A stretch of 27,342 nt of DNA from the IMG/VR virus record IMGVR_UViG_3300021962_005878, positions 1 through 27,342 of that record; one strand, written 5' to 3'. Shown here piece by piece: positions 3 through 27,293 of this stretch. Source of the stretch: a virus. Made by a program: the position numbers and the translations under genes. The stretch's first letter is position 1. Each line of letters starts with the position of its first letter. Below the pieces are notes generated by a model. The model saw only the letters and a list, made by a program, of their open reading frames with translations, was not told the origin of the DNA and ran no database searches.

Positions 3-197
3 GAAGAGAAGCTTACGTGGGTAGTATATAATGCCAACATGGTGCAAACCGCGGTAACTCTGATTATTTCATTGCGTGGCATGGATTTCTTTGATGACTA
101 CGTGAAAGTTATTTCAAGAGAATGCGGCGATGGTGCTCAAGGTGCATTGTACTTTGATCCTAACATCTTCAATCTAATAGGAAACGGATATGACTGA
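3..197 (+). CDS. C-terminal end of an unknown protein (5' truncated by window edge)
   Basis: An open frame runs from the window edge to a TGA at 195-197 and gives the last 64 residues of a protein whose start lies outside. It contains a moderately hydrophobic stretch (VQTAVTLIISLRG) and ends NLIGNGYD. The stop overlaps the next start (ATGACTGA), the tight coupling seen throughout this operon, which supports it being a real gene end. I do not recognise the family. Confidence 0.6.
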   Translation, partial: EEKLTWVVYNANMVQTAVTLIISLRGMDFFDDYVKVISRECGDGAQGALYFDPNIFNLIGNGYD

Positions 198-456
198 ACT
201 AGTAGACAACGAGTTTGGAGTCGAGTACGAGCAGATCTCGATCAGGAAGCTTCGAATCTTTCGAGTAGGCAAGCAATGGCTTGTCGAGTATCAACGCGCT
301 CCTCGTCTTTGGGCTCCATGGGATTACTTCTGGTGGTACAACGACGGACAGTACGTAGAGTATTACGATGCTCTTGGTCGAGTTAATGATCTGAAGGCTA
401 ATGGTTATGTGAACATACCAAGATTTATGAATGTGAAGGAATTTAAAATTGAGTGA
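190..456 (+). CDS. Unknown 88-aa phage protein, aromatic-rich
   Basis: The ATG at 190 overlaps the upstream stop by 8 nt. The reading frame ends at 456 and overlaps the next gene, which starts with TTG at 449. The protein is unusually rich in Trp and Tyr (APWDYFWWYNDGQYVEYY) and has alternating hydrophobic residues typical of a small beta protein. No signal peptide or membrane segment is visible. Translational coupling on both sides supports a real gene. The function is unknown; the position next to the 2H phosphoesterase and thyX suggests an early or middle accessory protein. Confidence 0.7.
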   Translation: MTELVDNEFGVEYEQISIRKLRIFRVGKQWLVEYQRAPRLWAPWDYFWWYNDGQYVEYYDALGRVNDLKANGYVNIPRFMNVKEFKIE

Positions 457-958
457 TTTGTTAAAGTTTCAAAGGTTTCTCGAGCAGATGATCGGCCACC
501 CGGACGGTACTTATATTGCTGCTGAACTCTCTCCTGACAGTCAAAGACTTCTTGACACTTATGTCACTGGTATGAACGTTCCGAATGCAGCAGATCCAGG
601 TCAATATCATTCTACGGTAATCTACTCGCGTAAAGGTGTTCCTGAAGCCCGCGAATATCATTTCGAGTTGCCGTTCAAGGCAAAGATTAAAGAATGGAAG
701 ATATTTGACACCAAGTTTGGTGAATCTGGTAAATGTCTGGTTGCTATCATGGATTCTCCTGAGCTGGAAAAAGCACACAAAGAAATCCGTGATAAGTATG
801 GCGCAACGCATGATTATCCAGATTATCATCCGCATGTAACAATCAGTTATGATTATCCGAATGAACTTCCTACTGAGATTCCTGATATGGAACTTGAGTA
901 TGATTATGTCGACATCAAACCACTAAATCCGCAGTTTGTTCCTGATAAGAAAGATTAA
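449..958 (+). CDS. 2H phosphoesterase, candidate anti-CBASS protein Acb1
   Basis: This 169-aa protein carries the two HxT motifs of the 2H phosphoesterase fold: H54-S-T56 in QYHSTVIYSRK and H129-V-T131 in YHPHVTISYD. The two motifs are about 75 residues apart. Known family members cleave 2',3'-cyclic phosphates or 2'-5' and 3'-5' cyclic oligonucleotides. The arrangement and flanking words (HxTxxYSRK, then GATxDxPxxxPHVTxSYD) resemble Acb1, the T4 gp57B family that destroys CBASS cyclic-nucleotide signals. From memory, T4 gp57B is of similar size. The likely start is TTG at 449, preceded by AAGGA at 436-440; the TTG start may keep expression low. It is translationally coupled to the gene before it, and thyX follows one base after its stop. 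Alternative: a 2'-5' RNA-ligase-like enzyme of other substrate. The fold is fairly sure; the Acb1 role is inference. Confidence 0.7.
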   Translation: MSDLLKFQRFLEQMIGHPDGTYIAAELSPDSQRLLDTYVTGMNVPNAADPGQYHSTVIYSRKGVPEAREYHFELPFKAKIKEWKIFDTKFGESGKCLVAIMDSPELEKAHKEIRDKYGATHDYPDYHPHVTISYDYPNELPTEIPDMELEYDYVDIKPLNPQFVPDKKD

Positions 959-959
959 T

Positions 960-1658
960 ATGAGTGAAGTAAATCTTATCGGTATTACCAAGCCGAGTGC
1001 ATATACAGAATGTACTACTGCCAATGAACTGGTTGCATGGGCAGCTCGAGTATCCAATCCCTCGAACCAAAACAATACTGCAACTGCACCTAAGCTAGTT
1101 CAGTATCTTATTCGTAACCAACACTGGTCACCTTTGGAGATGGTCCATGTCAGTATTGAAATCAAAACAACACGAGATATCGCTCGACAAATTCTTAGAC
1201 ATCGTTCTTTCTCATTCCAAGAATACTCTCAGCGTTACGCCGATCCAACGGCAGATCTTGGCTTTGTTAGACGAGAAGCCAGACTTCAAGACGCTAAGAA
1301 TCGTCAAAACTCGATCGAGGTTGAGGACAAACTACTTCAAGAACATTGGAACATACGGCAAGCACGTGCAATAAGCGAAGCTGAGTATGCCTACAACTGG
1401 GCCATTGAAAATGGTATTGCCAAGGAACAGGCACGAGCTGTTTTGCCTGAAGGTAACACAGTATCGGTTATGATTATGTCCGGTTCTCTTCGTTCGTGGG
1501 TTCATTACTGTCAGTTGCGTATGGACAAGGCCACACAGAAGGAACACCGTATTGTTGCCGAACAGTGCTGGGATATTATCGCGCATCATTTCCCAGATGT
1601 GAAGAAGGCTCTTGATGATATGGCTGCACAAGCAGAGTTCGAAAGGAAACTGCCATGA
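960..1658 (+). CDS. thyX: Flavin-dependent thymidylate synthase ThyX
   Basis: ThyX methylates dUMP to dTMP using methylene-tetrahydrofolate, FAD and NADPH. The 232-residue length is typical of the family. The signature RHRSFSFQEYSQRY spans residues 80-93 and matches the ThyX motif RHRxxSxxxxSxRY, which binds FAD and dUMP. The WSPLEMVHVSIEI stretch before it and the C-terminal region with RSWVHYCQLRMDKATQKEHR are also typical. The ATG at 960 is chosen because it starts one base after the upstream stop (956-958); an in-frame ATG at 936 would overlap the upstream gene for no reason. It forms a nucleotide block with nrdA and nrdB. T4 itself uses an unrelated ThyA-type enzyme (Td). Confidence 0.96.
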   Translation: MSEVNLIGITKPSAYTECTTANELVAWAARVSNPSNQNNTATAPKLVQYLIRNQHWSPLEMVHVSIEIKTTRDIARQILRHRSFSFQEYSQRYADPTADLGFVRREARLQDAKNRQNSIEVEDKLLQEHWNIRQARAISEAEYAYNWAIENGIAKEQARAVLPEGNTVSVMIMSGSLRSWVHYCQLRMDKATQKEHRIVAEQCWDIIAHHFPDVKKALDDMAAQAEFERKLP

Positions 1659-1801: not shown

Positions 1802-1974
1802 GTCATAGTAGTGTAGTAAAAGAAAACGAAGACGGTGAATTGTACATAGAATTATCAGACGAACTCATGGAAGCCATGGGTTGGGATATAGATACTGAAC
1901 TAGTATGGACCGTCTATGATGACGGCAAAATTGGATTAAGAAAGAGAACAGATGATCACAGTAACGAAGCGTGA
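1798..1974 (+). CDS. 58-aa protein resembling an AbrB/MazE-type swapped-hairpin domain
   Basis: The ATG at 1798 overlaps the previous stop, and the frame runs 23 nt into nrdA (nrdA ATG at 1952). The core pattern (ELYIELSDELMEAMGW, then an acidic turn, then VWTVYDDGKIGLRKR) follows the order strand, short helix ending in a Gly-Trp turn, strand, and Gly-Lys beta-turn strand of SpoVT/AbrB and MazE antitoxin DNA-binding domains. No toxin gene sits next to it. It may be a small transcription factor for the nrd operon or a lone antitoxin-like protein. The fold assignment is by pattern only; translation is supported by the coupled start. Confidence 0.6.
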   Translation: MSHSSVVKENEDGELYIELSDELMEAMGWDIDTELVWTVYDDGKIGLRKRTDDHSNEA

Positions 1975-4219
1975 TGGAACGCGCGAACCCCTCGATATTA
2001 ATAAGTTCCACAAAGTTGCGCTACATGCATGTGAAGGTCTATCTGGAGTTTCTGTATCTGATCTCGAAATCAAGACACATATTCAATTTTATGACAAGAT
2101 CAAGTCGATTGATATTCAAGAGACTCTGATCAAGGCTGCTGCCGAACTCATCACAGAAGAAGCACCAAACTATCAGTATGTGGCTGGTCGTCTGATCAAC
2201 TATAACCTTCGTAAGGAAGTTTATGGTCAGTATGAGCCTCCTCACCTTTTCGGTCATTATGGTCGAGTAGTACTAGAAGGGTATTATGATAATGCTCTGG
2301 CTTCTGCATACTCGCAAGAAGAGTGGATTCAACTCGCTGATTATATCGACCACGATCGTGATAACCTACTGACCTATGCTGCTATGGAACAGTTTCGCGG
2401 TAAGTATCTGATCCGTAATCGTGTGACGAATAAGTTCTACGAGACACCTCAGATGGCATTCATGTTAATTGCCATGACACTCTTTCAGAATTACAAAAAG
2501 AATCGAATCAAATGGGTAAAGGACCTTTATGATGCTATCAGTACATTTGACATTAGTCTTCCTACTCCTATTATGGCAGGAGTGCGGTCACCTCAACGCC
2601 AGTTTAGTTCGTGCGTACTTATCGAAACTGACGACTCGCTGGACTCAATAAATGCAACAGCCTCCGCAATTGTTAAGTATGTTTCTCAGAAAGCTGGTAT
2701 TGGTATTGGCGGCGGTCGTATTAGGGCTATTGGATCTCCTATACGCAACGGCGATGCTTCTCACACTGGTACTATTCCTTTTTATAAGCATTTCCAGTCA
2801 GCTGTTAAATCTTGTAGCCAAGGTGGTGTCCGTGGTGGAGCAGCGACTCTCTATTACCCCCTTTGGCATTACGAAGTGGAGGATCTTCTTGTCCTAAAGA
2901 ACAACAAGGGCACTGAAGACAACCGTATACGTCATCTTGATTATGGCGTGCAATTTAATAAGGTAATGTATGAAAGACTTCTTTCTGGAGGTAATATCAC
3001 CCTCTTCTCACCTAGTGATGTCCCGGATCTCTACGAAGCGTTTTACAACAACGTCGACGACTTTAGAGAACTCTACGAAAAGTACGAACGTAGTAAGGTT
3101 AGAAAGAAAACCATCCCTGCGATTGATCTCTTCTCAGCCTTCGTCACCGAACGAAAAGACACAGGACGAATCTATCTGATGAACGTCGATCATGCCAACG
3201 AGCATGGTTCGTTTACTGAAGCAGCGCCAATTAAGATGTCGAATCTGTGTTGCGAGATTACATTGCCAACAACTCCGCTAAAGGATATTCATGATGAAAC
3301 AGGCGAGATCAGCCTTTGCACACTTGCTGCAATTAATTGGGGCAAGATTAGAAAGCCAGCAGATTTCGAAAAGCCATGCACCATTGCAGTACGCGCTCTG
3401 GATGCCCTACTGGATTATCAGGACTATCCTGTTCGAGCCGCTGCTATTGGTACTCATAACCGTAGGCCTTTGGGCGTCGGCATCATTAATTTTGCTTATT
3501 GGTTGGCTCGTAATGACACTAACTATTCTGATCCTAACCTTGACCTCGTACATGAGTATGCTGAAGCATGGAGTTACTATCTTATCAAAGCCTCGATCGA
3601 CTTGGCCGAAGAAGTAGGACCTTGTCCTCTTGATCATCAAACAAAGTATGGTCATGGTATTATGCCAATTAATACCTACAAGAAAGAAGTCGATGAACTT
3701 GTGACTCCTAACTATAAGATGCCATGGAGTATATTGTCGAGTCGGGCACTATCATCTGGCATTCGTAACTCGACGCTGATGGCTCTCATGCCTGCCGAGA
3801 CTTCTGCTCAGATCAGCAACTCGACTAATGGTATTGAACCACCGCGTGCTCTGATCTCGATCAAGCAATCGAAAGATGGTGTACTCAAGCAAGTTGTTCC
3901 AGAGCTAAGACGACTCAAGAATAAATACGAATTACTATGGGATCAAAAGTCTCCAGAAGGTTATCTGAAGATTATGGCAGTCCTACAGAAGTTTATCGAT
4001 CAGGCTATCTCGGTCAATACTTCTTACAATCCTCGCAACTACGAGGACGAGAAGATCCCGATGTCTGAGATGATCAAACATATTTTGATGCACTACAAGT
4101 ACGGCGGAAAGACACTGTACTACTTCAACACCTTTGACGGTGCTGGTGAGATTGAAGAACCAAAACCACTCGCACAAGGGCAACTAGATGATGAGGATTG
4201 TGACTCTTGTAAAATCTAG
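1952..4219 (+). CDS. nrdA: Ribonucleotide reductase class Ia, large (alpha) subunit
   Basis: NrdA reduces ribonucleoside diphosphates to deoxy forms together with NrdB. The length of 755 aa is close to T4 NrdA (754). The N-terminal ~95 residues form an ATP-cone (TKRDGTREPLDINKF). The key residues are present: C221 (SSCVLI) and C456 (SLCTLAAINWG) as the active-site redox pair, N431-C433-E435 (NLCCEI) with C433 as the thiyl-radical cysteine, the paired tyrosines in KTLYYFNT for radical transfer, and the C-terminal shuttle pair C750/C753 (CDSC) that glutaredoxin reduces. The start overlaps the small upstream gene. NrdB follows within 0.9 kb and a glutaredoxin within 3.3 kb. The cysteine after C433 replaces the usual Leu (E. 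coli NLCLE), a small oddity. Confidence 0.98.
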   Translation: MITVTKRDGTREPLDINKFHKVALHACEGLSGVSVSDLEIKTHIQFYDKIKSIDIQETLIKAAAELITEEAPNYQYVAGRLINYNLRKEVYGQYEPPHLFGHYGRVVLEGYYDNALASAYSQEEWIQLADYIDHDRDNLLTYAAMEQFRGKYLIRNRVTNKFYETPQMAFMLIAMTLFQNYKKNRIKWVKDLYDAISTFDISLPTPIMAGVRSPQRQFSSCVLIETDDSLDSINATASAIVKYVSQKAGIGIGGGRIRAIGSPIRNGDASHTGTIPFYKHFQSAVKSCSQGGVRGGAATLYYPLWHYEVEDLLVLKNNKGTEDNRIRHLDYGVQFNKVMYERLLSGGNITLFSPSDVPDLYEAFYNNVDDFRELYEKYERSKVRKKTIPAIDLFSAFVTERKDTGRIYLMNVDHANEHGSFTEAAPIKMSNLCCEITLPTTPLKDIHDETGEISLCTLAAINWGKIRKPADFEKPCTIAVRALDALLDYQDYPVRAAAIGTHNRRPLGVGIINFAYWLARNDTNYSDPNLDLVHEYAEAWSYYLIKASIDLAEEVGPCPLDHQTKYGHGIMPINTYKKEVDELVTPNYKMPWSILSSRALSSGIRNSTLMALMPAETSAQISNSTNGIEPPRALISIKQSKDGVLKQVVPELRRLKNKYELLWDQKSPEGYLKIMAVLQKFIDQAISVNTSYNPRNYEDEKIPMSEMIKHILMHYKYGGKTLYYFNTFDGAGEIEEPKPLAQGQLDDEDCDSCKI

Positions 4220-6780: not shown

Positions 6781-7170
6781 GTGGGTAAGGTATTAGAACA
6801 CAAGCATTTGATTGTAAGAGCAGAGTTAAATAATCCTCCGCAGTGTACGTCGGCTATCGACGAGTGGATGAAGAAGCTGATCAATCAGATTGACATGAAA
6901 ATTTTAATGGGGCCATATACGGTGTATTCTGATATGGTCGGCAATCGCGGATTGACTGCCGTGACTATCATCGAAACCAGTCATATTGCTCTGCATGTTT
7001 GGGATGAATGCGAACCCGCTCTCGCTCAACTCGATGTATACACATGTAGTGCTCTGAATACTGACGATGTCTTCGAAGCCATGAAAGAATGGGATCCTAC
7101 AAAAGTTGAGTATAAGTATATAGACCGAGAAAACGGGTTGACATTAATTGAGAAAAATGAGGTGTTATAA
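6781..7170 (+). CDS. speD: SpeD-like pyruvoyl decarboxylase (S-adenosylmethionine decarboxylase family)
   Basis: The 129-aa length matches bacterial class 1b AdoMet decarboxylase proenzymes. These self-cleave before a serine to form a pyruvoyl group and make the aminopropyl donor for spermidine. The core reads ETSHIALHVWDE. Ser67 is the predicted cleavage and pyruvoyl residue, His72 and Cys89 (DVYTCS) match the processing and proton-donor residues, and Trp74 and Glu76 match substrate-side positions of the Thermotoga enzyme. The residue before the cleavage serine is Thr rather than the usual Glu. Start: GTG at 6781 with AGGAG at 6766-6770; no in-frame ATG fits. Some SpeD homologues decarboxylate arginine or ornithine instead, so the substrate is open. 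Confidence 0.85.
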   Translation: MGKVLEHKHLIVRAELNNPPQCTSAIDEWMKKLINQIDMKILMGPYTVYSDMVGNRGLTAVTIIETSHIALHVWDECEPALAQLDVYTCSALNTDDVFEAMKEWDPTKVEYKYIDRENGLTLIEKNEVL

Positions 7171-7686: not shown

Positions 7687-7936
7687 ATATTTAAAGGGCG
7701 TTCTCCAAACTGGAATCGCAAATGTAACCTTCGTAAAGAAGGATGGAACTGAACGTAAGTTACTCTGCACTCTGTTGCCGAGCGAGTTGCCGGCACAGAC
7801 TGATCTTGAAGAAGCCGTACAGAAGAAGACTCCAAATCCTGAAGTGCTCGCTGTATGGGATCTTGAAAATAAGGGTTGGCGTTCGTTCCGCTACGACTCT
7901 GTTCTCGGCTTTAGTGTGCTGTCGCTAGACGCATGA
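7631..7936 (+). CDS. Small SH3-like beta-barrel phage protein (DUF2693-like)
   Basis: This 101-aa protein has the pattern of a phage family usually described as SH3 beta-barrel fold proteins (DUF2693): YLKGVLQTGIANVTFVKKDG, then RKLLCTLLPSELP, and near the end a VWDLENKGWRSFRYDSVLGF word. The family is common in T4-like and other large phages and its function is not known. I prefer ATG 7631 to GTG 7625 because an AGG lies at good distance from it; either way it overlaps the glutaredoxin gene by over 50 nt in another frame. The stop overlaps the next start. Confidence 0.8.
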   Translation: MTNSLNGTTDQNDRSWQNEYLKGVLQTGIANVTFVKKDGTERKLLCTLLPSELPAQTDLEEAVQKKTPNPEVLAVWDLENKGWRSFRYDSVLGFSVLSLDA

Positions 7937-8274
7937 TCTACATAGTAGACATCGATCAGACTATATGCATGACTCCGTTTGTGAATGGAAAGCACCGTTA
8001 CGATCTTTCCGATCCATTCCCACAGCGTATTGACAAGATAAATAAACTATACGATCAGGGGCACACCATCATCTATTGGACTGCCCGTGGTTCAGGGTCG
8101 GGAATCGACTGGACAGAACTCACCACAAAACAACTCAATGATTGGGGCTGCAAGTTCCATGAAGTACGTCTCGGAAAACCTTCCTATGATGTATGGATTG
8201 ATGATAAAGCTCTCAATGATAGTGAATTCTTTTTTGACGTAGATCAAGCATATCTCGGAGAACATGATGAATGA
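7933..8274 (+). CDS. Small HAD-superfamily phosphatase, probable sugar-phosphate phosphatase
   Basis: A capless HAD phosphatase of 113 aa. Motif I is DIDQT (residues 6-10, nucleophile D6 and general acid D8), motif II is the Thr of YWTARG, the Lys is in GKPSYD, and motif IV is the WIDDKA acid pair. Such short HADs act on phosphosugars in capsule and LPS synthesis (KDO-8-P, heptose bisphosphate) or on nucleotides. It overlaps the glycosyltransferase gene and leads a cassette with HddA-like and GmhA-like genes. A role like GmhB, removing the 7-phosphate of heptose-1,7-bisphosphate, is therefore plausible, though that is inferred from context only. Confidence 0.82.
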   Translation: MIYIVDIDQTICMTPFVNGKHRYDLSDPFPQRIDKINKLYDQGHTIIYWTARGSGSGIDWTELTTKQLNDWGCKFHEVRLGKPSYDVWIDDKALNDSEFFFDVDQAYLGEHDE

Positions 8275-9253
8275 AGATTTAATTGAACTAAATGAACTGA
8301 ACAAGGAATCGAACGGTGGAACAGAACTTACCACTCGAGGTCTCTTCAACCGACTTACTCGTGATGAACTCGATGGTGTCCAAATTGTCACTGCTCGCGT
8401 CCGCGACCTTGATCCTAACCGAATTAAGATCTATCATCTACACGACCTTGCCGGCGATCCGGAGGCTTCACACCTTCAAGATCCAGCTTCTCGAGCTCGC
8501 TTCCAAAAGTTGGTCTTCAGCTCTAACTGGCAGTATCAACAGTATCGTGACTACCTTGGAGTTCCATATAGCAATCATTCAACAGTTATCGAAACAGGCA
8601 TCGAGCCTATTCCACTCGTTGACAAGCCAAAGGACAAGATACGTCTCATTTATACGTCCACACCTCATCGTGGATTGGAGATTCTGGTTCCTGTCTTTTG
8701 CGCTCTCGCCGAGAAATATCCAAACATCGAGCTAGACGTCTTCTCTTCCTTCGGAATCTATGGCCCAGGTTGGGAAGGCCGTGACGAGGCATACAAGCCT
8801 CTCTTCGATAAGATGAACGAACATCCACAAATCAACTATCATGGTTGGGCAGATCAGGAGACAGTACGTGCCGCATACCAAAAAGCCCACATCTTTGCAT
8901 ATCCTTGTATCTGGCCGGAAACTTCGTGCAGGTCACTTATTGAAGCTATGTCGGCTGGTTGTTTGGCGGTTCATCCTAACTTCTCTGCTTTGGCTGACAC
9001 GTCGGGTGGGTTGACTGTTCAATATGACGGCGACCATGAGAATCCAAATCTGCATGCTAACATCTTCGCACACACTCTGATGTATGCCATCGAGAACGTG
9101 CAGAACAACGACATTACTAACATGATGTCATTTGTCAAAGCCTATGCAGATACTCGTTTCGGTTGGGATTCTGTAATTCCCAAGTGGAAGGGACTGATTG
9201 CATCATTGAAGGAACAACACCGTGATATTGGCCAAAGCACCACTCAGAGTTAG
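8264..9253 (+). CDS. GT-B fold glycosyltransferase (GT4-like)
   Basis: A 329-aa retaining glycosyltransferase of the GT4 type. The C-terminal nucleotide-sugar domain shows IYTSTPHRGLEIL (residues 129-141), the strand/loop NYHGW, and the E-x7-E motif E219...E227 in WPETSCRSLIEAMSAG. The N-terminus has the glycine word NGGTEL. The protein is somewhat shorter than the usual 360-400 aa because the acceptor domain is reduced. No membrane segment is visible. It is the only transferase in the sugar cassette, so it probably uses the product of the neighbouring kinase and isomerase. The acceptor (host LPS, capsid or DNA) cannot be told. Two ATGs start the frame; 8264 has GGAG upstream. Confidence 0.88.
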   Translation: MMNEDLIELNELNKESNGGTELTTRGLFNRLTRDELDGVQIVTARVRDLDPNRIKIYHLHDLAGDPEASHLQDPASRARFQKLVFSSNWQYQQYRDYLGVPYSNHSTVIETGIEPIPLVDKPKDKIRLIYTSTPHRGLEILVPVFCALAEKYPNIELDVFSSFGIYGPGWEGRDEAYKPLFDKMNEHPQINYHGWADQETVRAAYQKAHIFAYPCIWPETSCRSLIEAMSAGCLAVHPNFSALADTSGGLTVQYDGDHENPNLHANIFAHTLMYAIENVQNNDITNMMSFVKAYADTRFGWDSVIPKWKGLIASLKEQHRDIGQSTTQS

Positions 9254-10172
9254 TTTTTTCGGCGGGGGTAGTGATATCCCCGCCCACTTTGCACAATGGG
9301 GTGGAGCAACCATCTCAACTGCCATCGACAAGTATGTCTATGTAGCAGTGATGCACACACCACACGACCACATTAAAGTTTCCTATTCGAAACAAGAGTG
9401 TGTTACAGACATAGAAGATCTTCAAAACGAGATCGTCAAAAACGCTCTTAAGTTCTTCGGTATCAAATCCAACATCGAGATCACGTCATTCGCGGACATC
9501 CCTACGATCGGTAACGGTCTTGGTGGATCGTCTGCCTTTACTTGTGCTCTCATCAAGGCTTTATCTACATATCTTGGTTATGAATACGTAAATCCTTATC
9601 TTGTTGCTAAGACTGCGTGTCATATCGAGATAGACCTGTGTGGTTGGAAGATCGGCATGCAGGATCAGTTTGCATCTGCATTCGGTGGCATGAACTACAT
9701 TAAATATTCTAACCGACTTGGGACTAGCGGTGTTGATGTGAAGCGTCTCGATACAATGGCAATCGAGAACTACATGATCTTGATTCCCACAAACGTAGAG
9801 CATCATGCAGCCAAGATCCTTGATAGCATTAACTTTGAAGCAAAGACATTTGTAATTAATGAACTTGCTCGTATGGCAGATATGCAAGGCACTCAGCTAG
9901 TAAATCCATTCGACTATGGTAGATTGCTTGATTCGGCATGGATTCTGAAGAAGCAGATGAGCGAAGAGATCTCCAGCAGTGATATAGATATTATGTACGA
10001 TCGTTGCAAATCTGCTGATGCTGTCGGTGCTAAGTTGCTCGGAGCTGGAGGCGGCGGATACATGCTAGCAATCACAGATTCAAAGAGCGCAATCCGCCAA
10101 GAATTCTCAGACAGAACATGCCTCGATGTAGGTATCGCACATGAAGGAGCAAGAGTTGTCTATCGAGACTGA
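9222..10172 (+). CDS. hddA: GHMP kinase, HddA-like (heptose 7-phosphate kinase)
   Basis: A 316-aa GHMP kinase. The N-terminus reads KAPLRVSFFGGGSDIPAHF followed by a GGATISTAIDKYVYV stretch, the form typical of D-glycero-alpha-D-manno-heptose 7-phosphate kinase. The ATP loop is GNGLGGSSAF (about 97-106). The IGMQDQFASAFGGMNYI word is characteristic of the HddA group. The C-terminal glycine motif is GAKLLGAGGGGYML. It would phosphorylate the anomeric carbon of heptose-7-phosphate. Start: GTG at 9222 with AAGGA upstream, overlapping the transferase gene by 32 nt. A related galactose/fucose-type sugar kinase is the main alternative; the neighbouring GmhA-like gene favours heptose. Confidence 0.87.
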   Translation: MILAKAPLRVSFFGGGSDIPAHFAQWGGATISTAIDKYVYVAVMHTPHDHIKVSYSKQECVTDIEDLQNEIVKNALKFFGIKSNIEITSFADIPTIGNGLGGSSAFTCALIKALSTYLGYEYVNPYLVAKTACHIEIDLCGWKIGMQDQFASAFGGMNYIKYSNRLGTSGVDVKRLDTMAIENYMILIPTNVEHHAAKILDSINFEAKTFVINELARMADMQGTQLVNPFDYGRLLDSAWILKKQMSEEISSSDIDIMYDRCKSADAVGAKLLGAGGGGYMLAITDSKSAIRQEFSDRTCLDVGIAHEGARVVYRD

Positions 10173-10737
10173 CATTATATTTGATCATATGGGCCTAATT
10201 AATATTGGGTTTGCAAGTATCGATCATGAAGAATTTAAAAAAGCAGCCGAACTGATTTGGCTGACAAGCATTTCAAATCATCGTAACAACATCTATACTA
10301 TCGGTAACGGTGCATCTGCTTCCATCGCTCAGCATTGGGCATGCGACTATACCAAAGGTTGTAAGAAAGGTGGACTGCGACCAAGAGTTATTTCTTTGGC
10401 TGCAAATATTCCACTGATGACAGCTGTGGCGAACGATATCTCCTATGACGATGTTTACTCGTTCCAGCTCGATGCACTCGGACAAGAAGGTGACGTACTC
10501 GTGGCCATCTCTTCGAGTGGTAATTCTCCAAATGTTGTCAAGGCAATTGAAACTGCTAAGGCATTGAAAGTAAAGACTATTGCTTTGACAGGATTTTCTC
10601 CAGATAATAAGTGCGCTCAGCTCGCAGATATCTCTCTACATGTCGATATCCAAGAATATGAGGCAGCAGAAGACGTCCACCAAGCTATTATGCATATGAT
10701 TGCTAAATATATCAGAAACAGAGGTAAGGTTACATAA
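10141..10737 (+). CDS. gmhA: SIS-domain phosphosugar isomerase, GmhA-like
   Basis: A 198-aa single-SIS protein of the GmhA/DiaA group. GmhA turns sedoheptulose-7-phosphate into heptose-7-phosphate. Phosphate-binding words are GNGASASIAQH (55-65) and ISSSGNSPNVVKAIETAK (123-140). Aligned to E. coli GmhA, metal/catalytic positions H61, E65, Q172 and H180 correspond to H65, D69, E177 and H185, so one Glu has become Asp and the Gln has become Glu. The gene overlaps the kinase gene by 32 nt, and its stop shares a base with the next start. Pairing with HddA supports the heptose pathway; another ketose-phosphate substrate is possible. Confidence 0.83.
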   Translation: MKEQELSIETDIIFDHMGLINIGFASIDHEEFKKAAELIWLTSISNHRNNIYTIGNGASASIAQHWACDYTKGCKKGGLRPRVISLAANIPLMTAVANDISYDDVYSFQLDALGQEGDVLVAISSSGNSPNVVKAIETAKALKVKTIALTGFSPDNKCAQLADISLHVDIQEYEAAEDVHQAIMHMIAKYIRNRGKVT

Positions 10738-11492
10738 TGTCACAACAACCAGTATCAATTCATCAGATCGCAGCTCAGTTCGGAACAGATAGTGGAAACT
10801 ATGAAGTACTCACTGACGCAGCCATTCGATCGAAGGGTGTAGAAGGCGCAGCAGTCGAGATCGGTGTTCGTCTCGGTGGTGGTCTACAACGTATCATCGA
10901 CGGTCTCGTAGAAAGTGGTCAAACTCCTGAGAAGCCAGTCTTTGGTATCGATCCGTATGGCAACATCGAGTACTACCGTGACGAGATCTTTAAGGAAGGC
11001 CGTTGCGACTATACCAATGAGATGCGCGACATTTGCATGATTAACATGTATCTGTACTGCCGTCAGAAGAACGTCAACTTCTATATGTTCAACCTTGAAG
11101 ACACCGAGTTCTTCAATCGTTATGCAGACGGTGTTCCTGTCTATGCAGACTATAAGCAGCTCGTCAATAAGTACAGCGTAGTCCACTTCGATGGTCCTCA
11201 TACACTCGAAGCTCTCGATGCCGAGATTGCATTCTTCCTCGAGCGGTCAGATCCTGGCGCTGTCTTCGTCTTTGACGACGTAGAGATGTACGAACACGAT
11301 GCTGTACACAATCAGTTGCTTGAATATGGTATGGAAATTGCCATGGAAACTGCTCGCAAGTGGTCCTACGTCAAGAAGGAACATGTCGATAAGAAGTGGG
11401 AACCAGTCGTTGGAACTCCTGGCTGGGAGCCAAACGCAGAGCAGTACACACCAAAGGGCGGTCCAAGTTTTAATTATAAAATCGACCTGTGA
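10737..11492 (+). CDS. Class I SAM-dependent methyltransferase-like protein
   Basis: A 251-aa protein with Rossmann methyltransferase features. The glycine motif I is in AAVEIGVRLGGGLQRI, the acidic motif II is in VFGIDPYGNIEYY, and the VVHFDGPHT strand with VFVFDDVEMY matches motifs IV and V of the TylF/Methyltransf_24 type. Such enzymes methylate sugars or other small molecules. It ends the coupled sugar cassette, so O-methylation of a transferred sugar is a natural guess. A new promoter follows in the 71-nt gap after it. The C-terminus (about 215-251) is Pro/Gly-rich and not assigned. Confidence 0.72.
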   Translation: MSQQPVSIHQIAAQFGTDSGNYEVLTDAAIRSKGVEGAAVEIGVRLGGGLQRIIDGLVESGQTPEKPVFGIDPYGNIEYYRDEIFKEGRCDYTNEMRDICMINMYLYCRQKNVNFYMFNLEDTEFFNRYADGVPVYADYKQLVNKYSVVHFDGPHTLEALDAEIAFFLERSDPGAVFVFDDVEMYEHDAVHNQLLEYGMEIAMETARKWSYVKKEHVDKKWEPVVGTPGWEPNAEQYTPKGGPSFNYKIDL

Positions 11493-19949: not shown

Positions 19950-20018
19950 GAATATCAGTTGTTGACAATCAACAATAAAGGCGGAAAGACCGGGGTTCGA
20001 CTCCCCGCACCTCCACCA
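19950..20018 (+). ncRNA. tmRNA acceptor piece
   Basis: Carries the T arm (5-bp stem, 7-nt loop) and the 3' half of the acceptor stem with an encoded CCA at 20016-20018. Discriminator base A20015 is as in other tmRNAs. Just inside its 5' side a small hairpin GTTG/CAAC (19958-19973) may be part of a pseudoknot. The mature 5' end is not defined by the sequence. Confidence 0.82.
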
Positions 20019-20100
20019 TGGACACACAGTCTTTCAACCACATTGCACAGGATGTAATGTCACGATAGATTGACTGAGTTGCGCAACGTGTGTCCATGAT
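20019..20100 (+). other. Intervening segment of the permuted tmRNA, held by an 11-bp inverted repeat
   Basis: Between the CCA end and the new 5' end lie 82 nt. Their borders pair perfectly: CATGGACACAC (20017-20027) with GTGTGTCCATG (20088-20098). The stem would bring the two tmRNA ends together in the precursor, presenting a substrate for RNase P at 20101 and for 3' trimming at 20018. Confidence 0.85.
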
Positions 20101-20181
20101 GGGGGTGACTATGGAATTCGATTTTCGTGTAATAGGGCGGTTTGAGACTGATTGCTTGGCAAAGTGCCACTAAACATAAAT

Positions 20182-20226
20182 GCTAACGATAACGATAGCT
20201 TTGCAGATATCCGCCTAGCGGCATGA
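20182..20226 (+). other. tmRNA tag-peptide reading frame
   Basis: Resume codon GCT at 20182, then AAC GAT AAC and on to GCG GCA TGA. It encodes ANDNDSFADIRLAA, 14 residues. The final LAA is the ClpX recognition end, and ANDN is the shared start of alphaproteobacterial tags. It has no start codon of its own because translation resumes here after the switch from the stalled message. Confidence 0.9.
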
Positions 20227-22957: not shown

Positions 22958-22988
22958 GAAAGGGGGCCGAAAGGTCCCCTTTCTTTTT
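22958..22988 (+). terminator. Rho-independent terminator after gp32
   Basis: GAAAGGGGGCC and GGTCCCCTTTC form an 11-bp stem with one G.U pair around a GAAA tetraloop, followed by five T. It ends the plus-strand unit where it meets the convergent minus-strand gene, whose stop (22987-22989) lies in the T tract. In the other direction no T tract follows. Confidence 0.93.
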
Positions 22989-25029
22989 ATCCGTGTGCCG
23001 TTTGTTCGTAGTTGACTTTTGCAATTAATCCCATACGAATCAAATACCAGTCAATATTCGAGTTATCAGATTCTGTTTGCGCGCCTTGCATTCCTGAAGA
23101 ACTCGAACTCGAGCTAGTGCTCAAACTAATTGGCGATGGTATTGAAGCCGCTGCATTTTCAGGAGTTTTCAAATCAACCATCACAGCCGTTTTTTCTCTG
23201 GCGGCTTTTGCAATATTTCCTGACATTGTGTCATTAAAACCTAGAAGTTGAGATCCAGACACATATTCTTGTTTTCCGAAGGAAGCACGCGCAATTGTAC
23301 CAAGGGCTTCCATTGCACCTTTGGTTAAATTAACACCAGTGGCTATGACTTGATCTAATATACCAGGTTCGGAACCACCGGTATGGCGACTAGTTCCTGG
23401 AATTTCAATATGCCATGGTTCCCACGACATTGGAAATTCCAAACCGAATCTAGCTGCATTCGCATGTGCCCATGTTTGAGCTGGACCAGGTTTGGCTATG
23501 TCCAGATCTGCCGCGGCGCCATAGTTATGATTAGATTGGCCAGGAGGTGCTACCCATTTTCTTGCCGCCTTTTCGCTGCCGTATTCTTTAACAGCCTGTG
23601 CAAATAATTCTTTTTGTCGTGCAACCGAACGAAACCCAGAAGTAATTCGAATTGGTACGCCGGCTTGTTCAGCCGCCACAAGAAATGGTCCTAACTTACC
23701 AGCAAAATCTGGTTTAAAGCCTTTTACATGTGACGGATCTTTGTAACTATACTTTTGAAGATCGATGGGTGCACCTGTTTGTGGAGGAGTGCCAGTAACA
23801 GGTGTAGCATTAGGAGATGCAGGTGTACTAGGAGCAGGAGCGCTCGGAGGAGTAACCCTAGGAGAAGCCGATGGAGCAGGAGGCGGAGCAGTATTCGATC
23901 GACTCGGACTTGGAACTGAGGATCTTGATCCAGAATTGCTTGTCGTTCCAGAAGAAGTGTTGGTGCGAGTTGCAACGCTTCGCCCTGTAGTTGAGGCCGC
24001 AGCTTTATTCGAACCAGAATTCGGCATTGCCGCTGGAGTACTAGAAGAACGTGAAGATGTACTGCTCGGAGTAGTTTCAGTCGGTTCACTTGGAGCGGCA
24101 GGTAATGAAGGCGCTGCCACATTAGGAGAAGACGGAGTATTACCTTGAGTAATATTTGGCTGTACGGATGCATCTACTTCAGTACTCTGACTTGAAGCAG
24201 AAGAAGAGCCTCCAGTAAAAAAATCTAATCCGTCAGAAATAGTGCTGGCAACATTTCCTACAAAATTAAATACACTTTTAATGCCGCTCGCGAGTGACTT
24301 AAACGCTTCTTGTACCGGTTCGAACTGCGCAGCTATTAATCCTCCTACAAGGAGTGCTACTCCCATTCCAGTAGCATCAGATTTTTCTGCATCTGCTTGA
24401 GAATTTTGTTCGATAGGAGATGCATCTTCTGATTTCGCTTCGATAGCGGCTTCTTTAGTTGCTACTAAATTTTTATTGGCTATTTTCTTTTGATTATCTA
24501 AGCGCTGCTTAAGATATCCGTCAACAGCAGCCAGCTTCTCTATCATTTGAACGATAGGAGAATTGATTTTAATATTTGAAACAGGAAGTTGTCCACCGCC
24601 TGTAGGAGTTTTGACTTTTTGCTTTGCGGCCTGTCCAGCTACACCCATTCCTGAAAAAACTTGGCCAGCCGCGGCTTTCTTTGCCCAATTTTCGTAAAGC
24701 TTTTCTTCTTCGGTCGTACCTTCCACGATGCCTTGATAGGCAGCTTCGATCAGTTTACTAAAGGCAGGATTAGCAGCGTCTTTAGTTTTCTTGTCGATCC
24801 ATACGTTGCTGTTAAGATCCCATACGTATTCTGTTTTACCAAGTTTTACAATCGGCCGAGAAGTATCAATACGAACACGCTTCTTCTTTCCTTCAGGAGA
24901 ATTTTCAACCTGAAGTCTATTCAGGAGTGAAAGCAATCCTTCAGGAGCTTTTGCTTTTGATTTCTGATCTACCCAACCTTCAGCAGTTTTAATGAAGGTT
25001 TGACCGCCTATTGTAACTGGTTCAGCCAT
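22987..25029 (-). CDS. Virion-type M15 peptidase with long Ser/Pro linker
   Basis: A 680-aa protein. N-terminal region (1-270): two short repeats around a Trp (TAEGWVDQK, NSNVWIDKK), a GxAGxAAKxKV...GGGxLP word (129-149) and one hydrophobic stretch (221-234). Residues 273-420 are a low-complexity Ser/Pro/Ala/Thr linker. Residues 425-545 form an M15 (VanY/endolysin-like) zinc peptidase: ITSGFRSVARQKELFAQA, then SNHNYGAAADLDI with H501 and D508, and EPWHIEI with H540. It should cleave peptide bridges in murein during entry. Residues 568-609 repeat a segment of the next gene. Start and stop overlap its neighbour (TAATG). Late tail or internal virion protein is the likely class. Confidence 0.88.
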   Translation of the reverse strand: MAEPVTIGGQTFIKTAEGWVDQKSKAKAPEGLLSLLNRLQVENSPEGKKKRVRIDTSRPIVKLGKTEYVWDLNSNVWIDKKTKDAANPAFSKLIEAAYQGIVEGTTEEEKLYENWAKKAAAGQVFSGMGVAGQAAKQKVKTPTGGGQLPVSNIKINSPIVQMIEKLAAVDGYLKQRLDNQKKIANKNLVATKEAAIEAKSEDASPIEQNSQADAEKSDATGMGVALLVGGLIAAQFEPVQEAFKSLASGIKSVFNFVGNVASTISDGLDFFTGGSSSASSQSTEVDASVQPNITQGNTPSSPNVAAPSLPAAPSEPTETTPSSTSSRSSSTPAAMPNSGSNKAAASTTGRSVATRTNTSSGTTSNSGSRSSVPSPSRSNTAPPPAPSASPRVTPPSAPAPSTPASPNATPVTGTPPQTGAPIDLQKYSYKDPSHVKGFKPDFAGKLGPFLVAAEQAGVPIRITSGFRSVARQKELFAQAVKEYGSEKAARKWVAPPGQSNHNYGAAADLDIAKPGPAQTWAHANAARFGLEFPMSWEPWHIEIPGTSRHTGGSEPGILDQVIATGVNLTKGAMEALGTIARASFGKQEYVSGSQLLGFNDTMSGNIAKAAREKTAVMVDLKTPENAAASIPSPISLSTSSSSSSSGMQGAQTESDNSNIDWYLIRMGLIAKVNYEQTAHG
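23203..23328 (-). repeat. Shared 42-residue C-terminal module, copy in the M15 peptidase
   Basis: Residues 568-609 (LTKGAMEALGTIARASFGKQ and on to FNDTMSGNIAKA) are about 80% identical to residues 630-671 of the adjacent transglycosylase protein. The module follows the enzymatic domain in both proteins. Confidence 0.85.
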
Positions 25030-27293
25030 TACGCAGCCATCTTCGGTTTATGATATTGCATGTATTTTTCTATTGAGCCTTTTCCTGGGAAATTAGGATC
25101 GAAGTGTTCGCGCTTATTATCATTCGAAGAATTAGCTTTATTGCCTAAAGCAGCGCCTGATGCTTCTTGCTGATTCTTAGCTTGAGCTGTATCTTTAGCT
25201 CCTAAGTCAACTGCAGTTTGTACTTGTGTCGACATGCCCTTTAATGTTTCAGTCACAGCAGATGCGCCTTGATTAGGAACTGCTTTGGCTACATTACCTT
25301 GCATAGTATCATTAAAATTATTTAACTGAGATCCGGGCGAATAAGCTTGTTTACCAAAAGAAGCTCGAGCGATCGTGCCGAGAGCTTCCATTGCACCTTT
25401 ACCTAAATTAGCAAGATTCGCAGCCACATTACTTCCAGGCGCAGCTGCACCTTGCGAATCATAAGTAGAAGGCGCATATTGTCCACCGGTATAATCAGCC
25501 ATCCATTTTGCTTGATATTGTGCAACTGTCAGTCCGTTATTCTGAGACAATTCCTCGGGTGTAAGATACTTCTTGGGACCAGCATACCATTCGGCTGGAA
25601 CTGCGGTTACATCTCCGCCATTTCTTCGTAATATATCTTGAACATATAGTGCAGCAACAGCGTCTTGAATAGGTGGTGGAGCAAGATATGCTCTAGGATA
25701 TTCAGTTCCTATTTTATATAATTTAGTTAAATTTCTCCAAGATTCGTCGAGGAATGCATATGCACCAGATGCAGTTTGGTCTGGCATGCCAATCGGATGT
25801 GGAATACCATAATTGCCACCGGACTCTCGCGTTCTGATAGTAGCAAGGATTCTTTCTACATCTGCTGGAATAGGTGGAAGATTTTGCAACTGTGCTGCAG
25901 AAGCTATCGGAGCTCCAGCAATATTACCTGATCCCGATATTGGAGCTGCATCAGGCTGTGGTTTTAAATTTGCAGTAGCTTGCGCATCTTTTAATTGTTC
26001 TTCTTCTTCTGTCCAATCCCAATATGCAGATATAATATCATATATTAGAAATGCGCTTGAGGCGACAGTAATAAGAGTAAGCAAAGCTCCAGGTATTACG
26101 CCAATTCCTGTTGCAGCAATTCCAATACCTGCTAAAGCTCTTCCAAGTAAAGGCATAACCTTTCTTGCAAGGAAAGTTTTACCAAAACGTTTTGATAAAA
26201 ATGCTACAAATCTTCTTCCTTTTGGACCTGATAACCATCCTCCGCCTGCTGAAGAAGCAGCTTTTGATGCTATTTTTCCAGTGACAGGATCTCTAAATCC
26301 TAGTCTTCCTCCTGATGCCGAAAGCCGCGGTGCAGCCTGAGTTTTTGCAATATTAGCTCGGGCATTTTTAATTTTTCCAAAGGTTTTTACACCTCGATAT
26401 GCAGCATAACCGGCCAAACCTCCGGCCATGGCATGGTCATATGATCCATCTTTTCGTGGAGCTTGAGTGCCATCAGGTTCTTTTCCAGTCCCGGTTATAT
26501 TTTCAAATAAGCTATTTCCGGTAAAGCGCTCGCTGAGATACTCGGCTACGAGCCCTGCAATTCCCAAGCGAACTCCGCCTAGAAGATATCCAATAACTGA
26601 GCCTGTACTTGCTACTCCATCGGCGAGTGGACCAAGGAAATCAAATTTTTCGTTAAAGGCTTTATAACTGTCTTTTAAACGATCGAGTTCTTTGGTATCT
26701 AAATTGCCTATGGCTAAAAGGCCGAGTCCTGCAATCCCACTCGCCGCTAAGATGGCTTTCGTGATTGTGCCAGCTCTGCTTTTTACTGTGCTGTCATCTG
26801 ACATACCGCTAAATTTGTCAGATAACTTAGTAAAGATACTTTCTTTTTGGCCGCCGCTTTCAATGGCACTTTCTCGTTCAGCTTGAGCTTGCTGAACGAA
26901 TGCATCTCTCTCAAACTTAATTTGCGCCTGAAGAGTCTTATCGATAGAAGAAAGATAATTGACTGCGACTACTAGAAGCTTTTCAGTAGGCATATTCGCA
27001 TTGACAGCAGGAGTAGCAGCTTTTTTCGGAGCAGGAAGTGTTCCTCCGCCAGTTACCTTGCCTTTCGCAGCAGTCCCAGCGATACCAAAATTATTTACTA
27101 TCGTTTTAGGTGCAGGAGTTAACGCTCCACCGACAGCAGAGCCGATACCTTGGGCGATACCTCCGACGGCAGAACCAATTCCAGTGACTGTCGCAGAAGC
27201 AAGACCGAAGAAACCTTCAATGCCCTCTCCTACGACTTCTACGCCGAGTCTTGGTAATATTCCCCCGAGTCCTGGTTTTCCAACCTTTCCCAT
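25029..27293 (-). CDS. Virion-type lytic transglycosylase with membrane segments
   Basis: A 754-aa protein. The N-terminus is Gly/Ala-rich (glycine-zipper-like, 25-58). Residues 67-146 contain a GxAGxAAKxKVTGGGxLP word and a helical region shared with the M15 gene. Hydrophobic segments lie at about 178-196, 228-252 and 386-424. A lysozyme-like domain at about 478-600 has catalytic E490 in TIRTRESGGNYG and ASGAYAFLDESWRNLTKLY, like Slt/transglycosylase domains. The shared 42-residue module is at 630-671. It should cut murein glycan at infection and perhaps help form a path through the membrane. It overlaps the M15 gene and an upstream gene by TAATG. Late structural protein; the exact position in the virion is unknown. 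Confidence 0.87.
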   Translation of the reverse strand: MGKVGKPGLGGILPRLGVEVVGEGIEGFFGLASATVTGIGSAVGGIAQGIGSAVGGALTPAPKTIVNNFGIAGTAAKGKVTGGGTLPAPKKAATPAVNANMPTEKLLVVAVNYLSSIDKTLQAQIKFERDAFVQQAQAERESAIESGGQKESIFTKLSDKFSGMSDDSTVKSRAGTITKAILAASGIAGLGLLAIGNLDTKELDRLKDSYKAFNEKFDFLGPLADGVASTGSVIGYLLGGVRLGIAGLVAEYLSERFTGNSLFENITGTGKEPDGTQAPRKDGSYDHAMAGGLAGYAAYRGVKTFGKIKNARANIAKTQAAPRLSASGGRLGFRDPVTGKIASKAASSAGGGWLSGPKGRRFVAFLSKRFGKTFLARKVMPLLGRALAGIGIAATGIGVIPGALLTLITVASSAFLIYDIISAYWDWTEEEEQLKDAQATANLKPQPDAAPISGSGNIAGAPIASAAQLQNLPPIPADVERILATIRTRESGGNYGIPHPIGMPDQTASGAYAFLDESWRNLTKLYKIGTEYPRAYLAPPPIQDAVAALYVQDILRRNGGDVTAVPAEWYAGPKKYLTPEELSQNNGLTVAQYQAKWMADYTGGQYAPSTYDSQGAAAPGSNVAANLANLGKGAMEALGTIARASFGKQAYSPGSQLNNFNDTMQGNVAKAVPNQGASAVTETLKGMSTQVQTAVDLGAKDTAQAKNQQEASGAALGNKANSSNDNKREHFDPNFPGKGSIEKYMQYHKPKMAA
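25281..25406 (-). repeat. Shared 42-residue C-terminal module, copy in the transglycosylase
   Basis: Residues 630-671 (LGKGAMEALGTIARASFGKQ and on to FNDTMQGNVAKA) pair with residues 568-609 of the M15 protein. Most differences are single conservative changes, and the flanking sequences are unrelated. Confidence 0.85.

Follow-up and report, generated by a model that had tools for sequence, protein, structure and literature searches.

We analysed a 27,342-base IMG/VR virus record, hereafter the window, that comes from an uncultured T4-like phage. Close to its first base lies a gene of the Acb1 (T4 gp57B-like) family of 2H phosphodiesterases, termed acb1 here, whose start is overlapped by a short open reading frame and which is followed by thyX and nrdA. 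The locus comprises:

190-456, plus strand: 88-amino-acid open reading frame of unassigned function, overlapping the start of acb1
436-440, plus strand: Shine-Dalgarno-like AAGGA, 8 nt upstream of the TTG, read directly from the sequence
449-958, plus strand: acb1, Acb1-family (T4 gp57B-like) 2H phosphodiesterase, TTG start, 169 amino acids (PF23474, phrog_755, 7t26, 7t27)
608-616, plus strand: first catalytic HxT, H54-S55-T56 (T4 H44/T46), placed by alignment; H44 invariant in all 121 rows, T46 replaced once, by Ser
833-841, plus strand: second catalytic HxT, H129-V130-T131 (T4 H113/T115), placed by alignment; both residues invariant in all 121 rows
911-919, plus strand: D155-I156-K157, an acid at T4 Y139 and Lys at T4 E141 (adenine-reading), placed by alignment; within model strand 148-158
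935-937, plus strand: F163 at T4 W147 (C-terminal lid, base-stacking), placed by alignment
960-1658, plus strand: thyX, flavin-dependent thymidylate synthase (Pfam PF02511), its ATG 1 base past the acb1 stop
1952-4219, plus strand: nrdA, ribonucleotide reductase large subunit (Pfam PF02867/PF00317/PF03477)

An earlier note on this DNA had described the 169-amino-acid frame with its TTG start, and it is a real open reading frame on the plus strand. The start at 449 is plausible because of the AAGGA upstream and because the alignment of the KVP40 and Aeromonas homologues to the window protein begins at about residue 4. The accompanying idea that this codon may tune dosage found no support; a TTG alone is uninformative in this regard. 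The overlapping 88-amino-acid frame had no match in Pfam, PHROG or PADLOC, and a relative of it sits 3' of acb1 in record L100 (tblastn).

The protein encoded at 449-958 belongs to the Acb1 (T4 gp57B) family. It matches the Pfam profile PF23474 'Anti-CBASS protein Acb1' with 91.4 bits (E = 5.8e-26), 3.4 times the cut-off of 27, the PHROG profile phrog_755 at E = 1.7e-31, and FBB1 Acb1 (PDB 7t26) at E = 2.9e-15 in a single-sequence search and E 2.5e-53 in a profile search. Matches of this strength to PF23474, phrog_755 and 7t26 place the relationship beyond chance. The LigT equivalog TIGR02258 gave 15.5 bits against a cut-off of 65.7. A search of the 50,697 records of the phage collection with the protein gave 1,578 matching records at E up to 10, with a weak tail; every best place is below 60% identity, and the 60 best rows share 30-38% identity and are mostly T4-like phages. 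PADLOC, a library of defence and not of counter-defence proteins, yielded no match, and among the 105 stretches of bacterial genomes returned by a pattern search for members of the Acb1 clade discussed below there was no relative.

The structure alignment contained 45 rows of less than 85% identity to each other (window and 44 IMG/VR loci), and the AlphaFold2 model of the window protein reached a mean pLDDT of 92.7 and a pTM of 0.83. Foldseek ranked FBB1 Acb1 with 3'3'-cGAMP first (7t27, E 2.7e-10), followed by apo Acb1, the BCSR5 phosphodiesterase and LigT-type or related 2H proteins. The earlier note had proposed a comparison of a predicted structure with Acb1 structures, and in VIA-align 2 these came out on top: the model aligned to 7t27 with Z 20.0 and 1.8 Å over 140 residues and to a second Acb1 entry with Z 18.9, followed by the BCSR5 phosphodiesterase (16.6 and 15.2), LigT (12.1), which is the best structure not named Acb1 or BCSR5 phosphodiesterase, and a poxvirus cGAMP phosphodiesterase (9.6). 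With Z 20.0 and 18.9 for Acb1 against 12.1 for LigT, RNA ligase-like 2H proteins are therefore not the better fit.

For the active site we relied on a family alignment that began with 69 rows from 84 (window and 83 loci with a match, identical segments removed), grew by 6 to 75 and then, by 46 of 64 new loci, to 121; the other 18 were dropped as their 100-residue core was identical to a retained row. Fused proteins were trimmed to the Acb1 envelope prior to alignment. In T4 Acb1, the catalytic tetrad is described as H44, T46, H113 and T115, the base-stacking aromatics as Y12, W74, F107 and W147, and the lid as residues 145-152 (PMC9117128). The two HxT motifs that had been pointed out in the window protein are present. 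Such a pair by itself says little, because two H-x-[T/S] motifs spaced by 60-95 residues turn up in 797 of 20,000 shuffled versions of the protein as well, and in 2 of the 66 stop-to-stop frames of at least 100 amino acids in the window, the acb1 frame included. The full tetrad is retained in 120 of 121 family rows, among them the window. All four stacking positions are aromatic as well (Y22, F86, Y123 and F163), three of them swapped for another aromatic. The resemblance to T4 gp57B/Acb1 noticed earlier thus holds at the level of sequence profile, fold and active site.

The 2H superfamily also includes enzymes that heal RNA ends, and a 2H phosphoesterase of RNA repair or nucleotide metabolism, acting on 2',3'-cyclic phosphate ends in the manner of LigT or CPDase, would suit a place among thyX and nrdAB, whose neighbouring products make dNTPs. 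The broad superfamily profile PF13563 (2_5_RNA_ligase2) is indeed passed, if just (29.7 bits against a cut-off of 27), but the Acb1 profile is ahead by 62 bits, and the fold gives the same order. Likewise, the family phrog_755 is labelled 'RNA ligase', but T4 57B, which is Acb1, goes by this name in its record too. Aromatics at the lid and stacking positions speak against RNA repair too, as does a survey that describes phage solo 2H domains of such kind as unassociated with RNA ligases and proposes them to be RNases or degraders of nucleotides in nucleotide-activated defences (PMC5512222). On score and fold, RNA end healing is less likely than cleavage of CBASS signals, and we regard it as very improbable.

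We consider it highly probable that acb1 codes for an anti-CBASS nuclease of the Acb1 type, with the activity predicted and its chemistry, timing and anti-CBASS role inferred from T4 and FBB1 Acb1. By this analogy, cyclic di- and trinucleotide alarm signals would be caught during infection in the U-shaped 2H pocket, over which the C-terminal lid would shut. The tetrad H54, T56, H129 and T131 would then cut a 3'-5' phosphodiester bond without a metal, so that the signal would be linearised ahead of CBASS effector activation. Counting against this function are the replacement of E141 by K157 and of the lid Trp by Phe, the distance of the closest named phage homologues (about 30-38% identity), and window neighbours that are nucleotide-metabolism genes, none of them a known anti-defence gene.

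Compared with named systems, the window protein shares 32% identity with T4 Acb1 (gp57B, NP_049750.1) and 28% with FBB1 Acb1 (PDB 7t26/7t27). It resembles both in fold, the HxT/HxT tetrad, Y12 and the aromatic positions, the C-terminal lid and size, but differs from T4 Acb1 at E141/K157, W147/F163, Y139/D155, W74/F86 and F107/Y123. Among the closest named relatives are the gp57B proteins of Aeromonas phage Ah1/Aeh1 and Vibrio phage KVP40 (32-38% identity, tblastn), which have the tetrad in common with the window protein but, unlike it, retain Glu141 and Trp147 (rows L002, L003 and L010). Gene order differs as well: T4 57B adjoins 57A, gene 1 and ipI, and gp57B adjoins gene 1 in Ah1 and KVP40, whereas acb1 of the window adjoins thyX/nrdA. 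The Burkholderia phage BCSR5 phosphodiesterase (PDB 9q2g/9q2y, 'Anti-CBASS protein Acb1') has the Acb1 fold, with open and closed states of the lid, at 18-22% identity; our literature search found no paper on this enzyme. The poxvirus cGAMP phosphodiesterase (PDB 9ciw/9bkq; 13-14% identity) likewise has a 2H fold and is said to degrade cGAMP, with a lid of its own that is N-terminal (PMC12064943).

Some Acb1 domains with an intact HxT/HxT form part of larger proteins, joined to a portal protein or another head-related domain:

L068, 1312-3246: Phage_portal_3-Acb1 fusion
L071, 1390-3372: Phage_portal_3-Acb1 fusion
L078, 1117-3243: Phage_portal_3-Acb1 fusion
L081, 1354-3240: Phage_portal_3-Acb1 fusion
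L080, 1519-3606: Portal_Mu-Acb1 fusion

The same holds for L083 and L084, and the Acb1 profile also picks up the Pam3 portal structure 8hds. Domains fused in this way could be carried in the virion. We dropped these fusions as a new observation since proteins in which a 2H domain is fused to a MuF or portal domain were published in 2017, in a report that precedes the naming of Acb1 (PMC5512222).

As a family assignment, the window protein is ordinary; what is unusual is the residue at the substrate-reading position, on which the earlier note is silent. In T4 Acb1, E141 is reported to touch the adenosine N6, which accounts for the need of at least one adenine. 3'3'-cGAMP and cAAA were cleaved by T4 Acb1 and by each of 9 further homologues assayed, and cGG was reportedly left uncleaved by the T4 enzyme (PMC9117128). 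In our alignment of 121 rows, position 141 is Glu in 105 and Lys in 7, and position 147 is Trp in 93 and Phe in 11. Glu141, absent in the window protein, is hence a common trait of the family that is neither universal nor defining. Lys141 together with Phe147 and an acid (Asp/Glu) at position 139 is common to five of the 121 non-redundant rows, namely the window, L012, L061, L087 and L100; the remaining two Lys141 rows (L085 and L093) are without this combination. Four members of this clade grouped with a support of 100/99 in one tree, and all five with 95/97 in a tree of 32 hand-picked rows of the 121, in which the deep forks are weak. The related rows L102, L103, L104 and L106, with L104 the closest row outside the clade by tree path, have His139, Glu141 and Phe147. 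As they combine Phe147 with Glu141, Phe147 may have arisen before Lys141, the forks joining the groups being weak.

D155 and K157 are two residues apart in the single model strand 148-158, so their side chains should face the same way. From the alignment, the acid at position 139 (D155) may take over the adenine contact of E141, or base selectivity may be altered. In an alternative register, D155 may itself fall into the E141 column, for which the alignment has to move by two residues relative to the K/E-P-L motif. With Lys in place of the adenine-reading Glu throughout the clade, the bases read by the window enzyme need not be those read by T4 Acb1. One tentative reading is that the five sequences form an Acb1 subfamily whose adenine reader has been exchanged for a charge-swapped pair (acid 139, Lys 141) with a different base rule, for example cutting adenine-free cGG or cUU, the latter being a CBASS signal; we find this possible but rather unlikely. 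An Acb1-fold enzyme with a substrate outside CBASS, be it a Panoptes-like or other nucleotide-based defence signal or, on the host side, a signal like c-di-GMP, would accord with the loss of the Glu and with the activity of other phage nucleotide enzymes and sponges beyond CBASS, but we consider it very improbable. Panoptes defence is described as unaffected by deletion of acb1 from T4, whereas acb1 expressed from a plasmid lowered colony formation (PMC12657218).

The surroundings of acb1 were compared by tblastn in eleven records: the window, L086 (the contig of L012), L088 (the contig of L061), L087, L100, L102-L106 and L111. L104 and L105 gave equal values and look like near-copies. The order primase-acb1-(SLOG)-thyX-nrdA is conserved. 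A primase-like gene lies upstream of acb1 in 10 of 11 records, the window contig starting too near acb1. ThyX follows downstream in 10 of 11, with L086 carrying ThyA and DHFR instead. NrdA is found in 10 of 11, as the locus of L106 ends earlier, and the NrdA match in L086 is just 21.5% identical. Except for the window and L100, the records carry a SLOG-family gene (PF10686) directly 3' of acb1 (9 of 11):

L087, 6444-6842: SLOG gene (YspA/YAcAr, PF10686 tested on this record), overlapping the acb1 stop
L086, 6492-6878: SLOG gene
L088, 6605-7000: SLOG gene
L102-L106 and L111: SLOG gene

SLOG domains bind nucleotide-derived ligands, and for this reason the gene may be a partner anti-defence gene of acb1.

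Hints to the host come from other parts of the window, first of all from one RNA gene:

19957-20226, plus strand: permuted (two-piece) tmRNA, complete, predicted tag ANDNDSFADIRLAA (RF04321, 90.3 bits)

Within the clan it scores best with alpha_tmRNA, at 48.1 bits, the gathering score being 50. Of seven sister records searched, most of them fragments, one has a permuted tmRNA, on the L104 contig, and the genome contigs collection held no match to a degenerate pattern that covered the beginning of the tag. Permuted tmRNAs have already been described in phages. They are known from Cyanobacteria as well as from Alpha- and Betaproteobacteria, and one methylophage is reported to carry an alpha-type copy, so the alpha type leaves the host unfixed (PMC9004378). 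NrdA and RNase H of the window are nearest to Stenotrophomonas phage DLP6, a 362-amino-acid protein to phage phiN3 of Sinorhizobium and phage Cr30 of Caulobacter, closely followed by DLP6, gp32 to Synechococcus phages and ThyX to Methylophilales phages; these phages infect gamma-, beta- or alphaproteobacteria or cyanobacteria. Taken from the alpha-type permuted tmRNA, an alphaproteobacterial host is plausible. A literature search jointly on CBASS, phage, Alphaproteobacteria and 'Rhizob' returned no paper.

Several further genes of the window are worth recording. A plus-strand cluster at 7933-11492 encodes a HAD-like frame (by inspection), a glycosyltransferase, a GHMP kinase, a SIS-domain protein and a methyltransferase, and presumably resembles a heptose-nucleotide (GmhA/HddA-like) pathway. 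The minus-strand neighbours 22987-25029 and 25029-27293 share a near-identical stretch, GAMEALGTIARASFGKQ..., near their C-terminal ends, and one of them has a VanY peptidase domain; the larger protein (754 amino acids) had no match in the phage collection. At 6781-7170 on the plus strand lies a phage-encoded S-adenosylmethionine decarboxylase-like protein (phrog_3125).

Overall, these findings add to the Acb1 carriers a lineage of uncultured T4-like phages in which the gene has other neighbours. Confined to a small clade, the exchange described here amounts to a natural experiment at the very residue said to confer the adenine requirement of Acb1, and the clade bears on whether phages retune Acb1 to fit the CBASS signals of their hosts.
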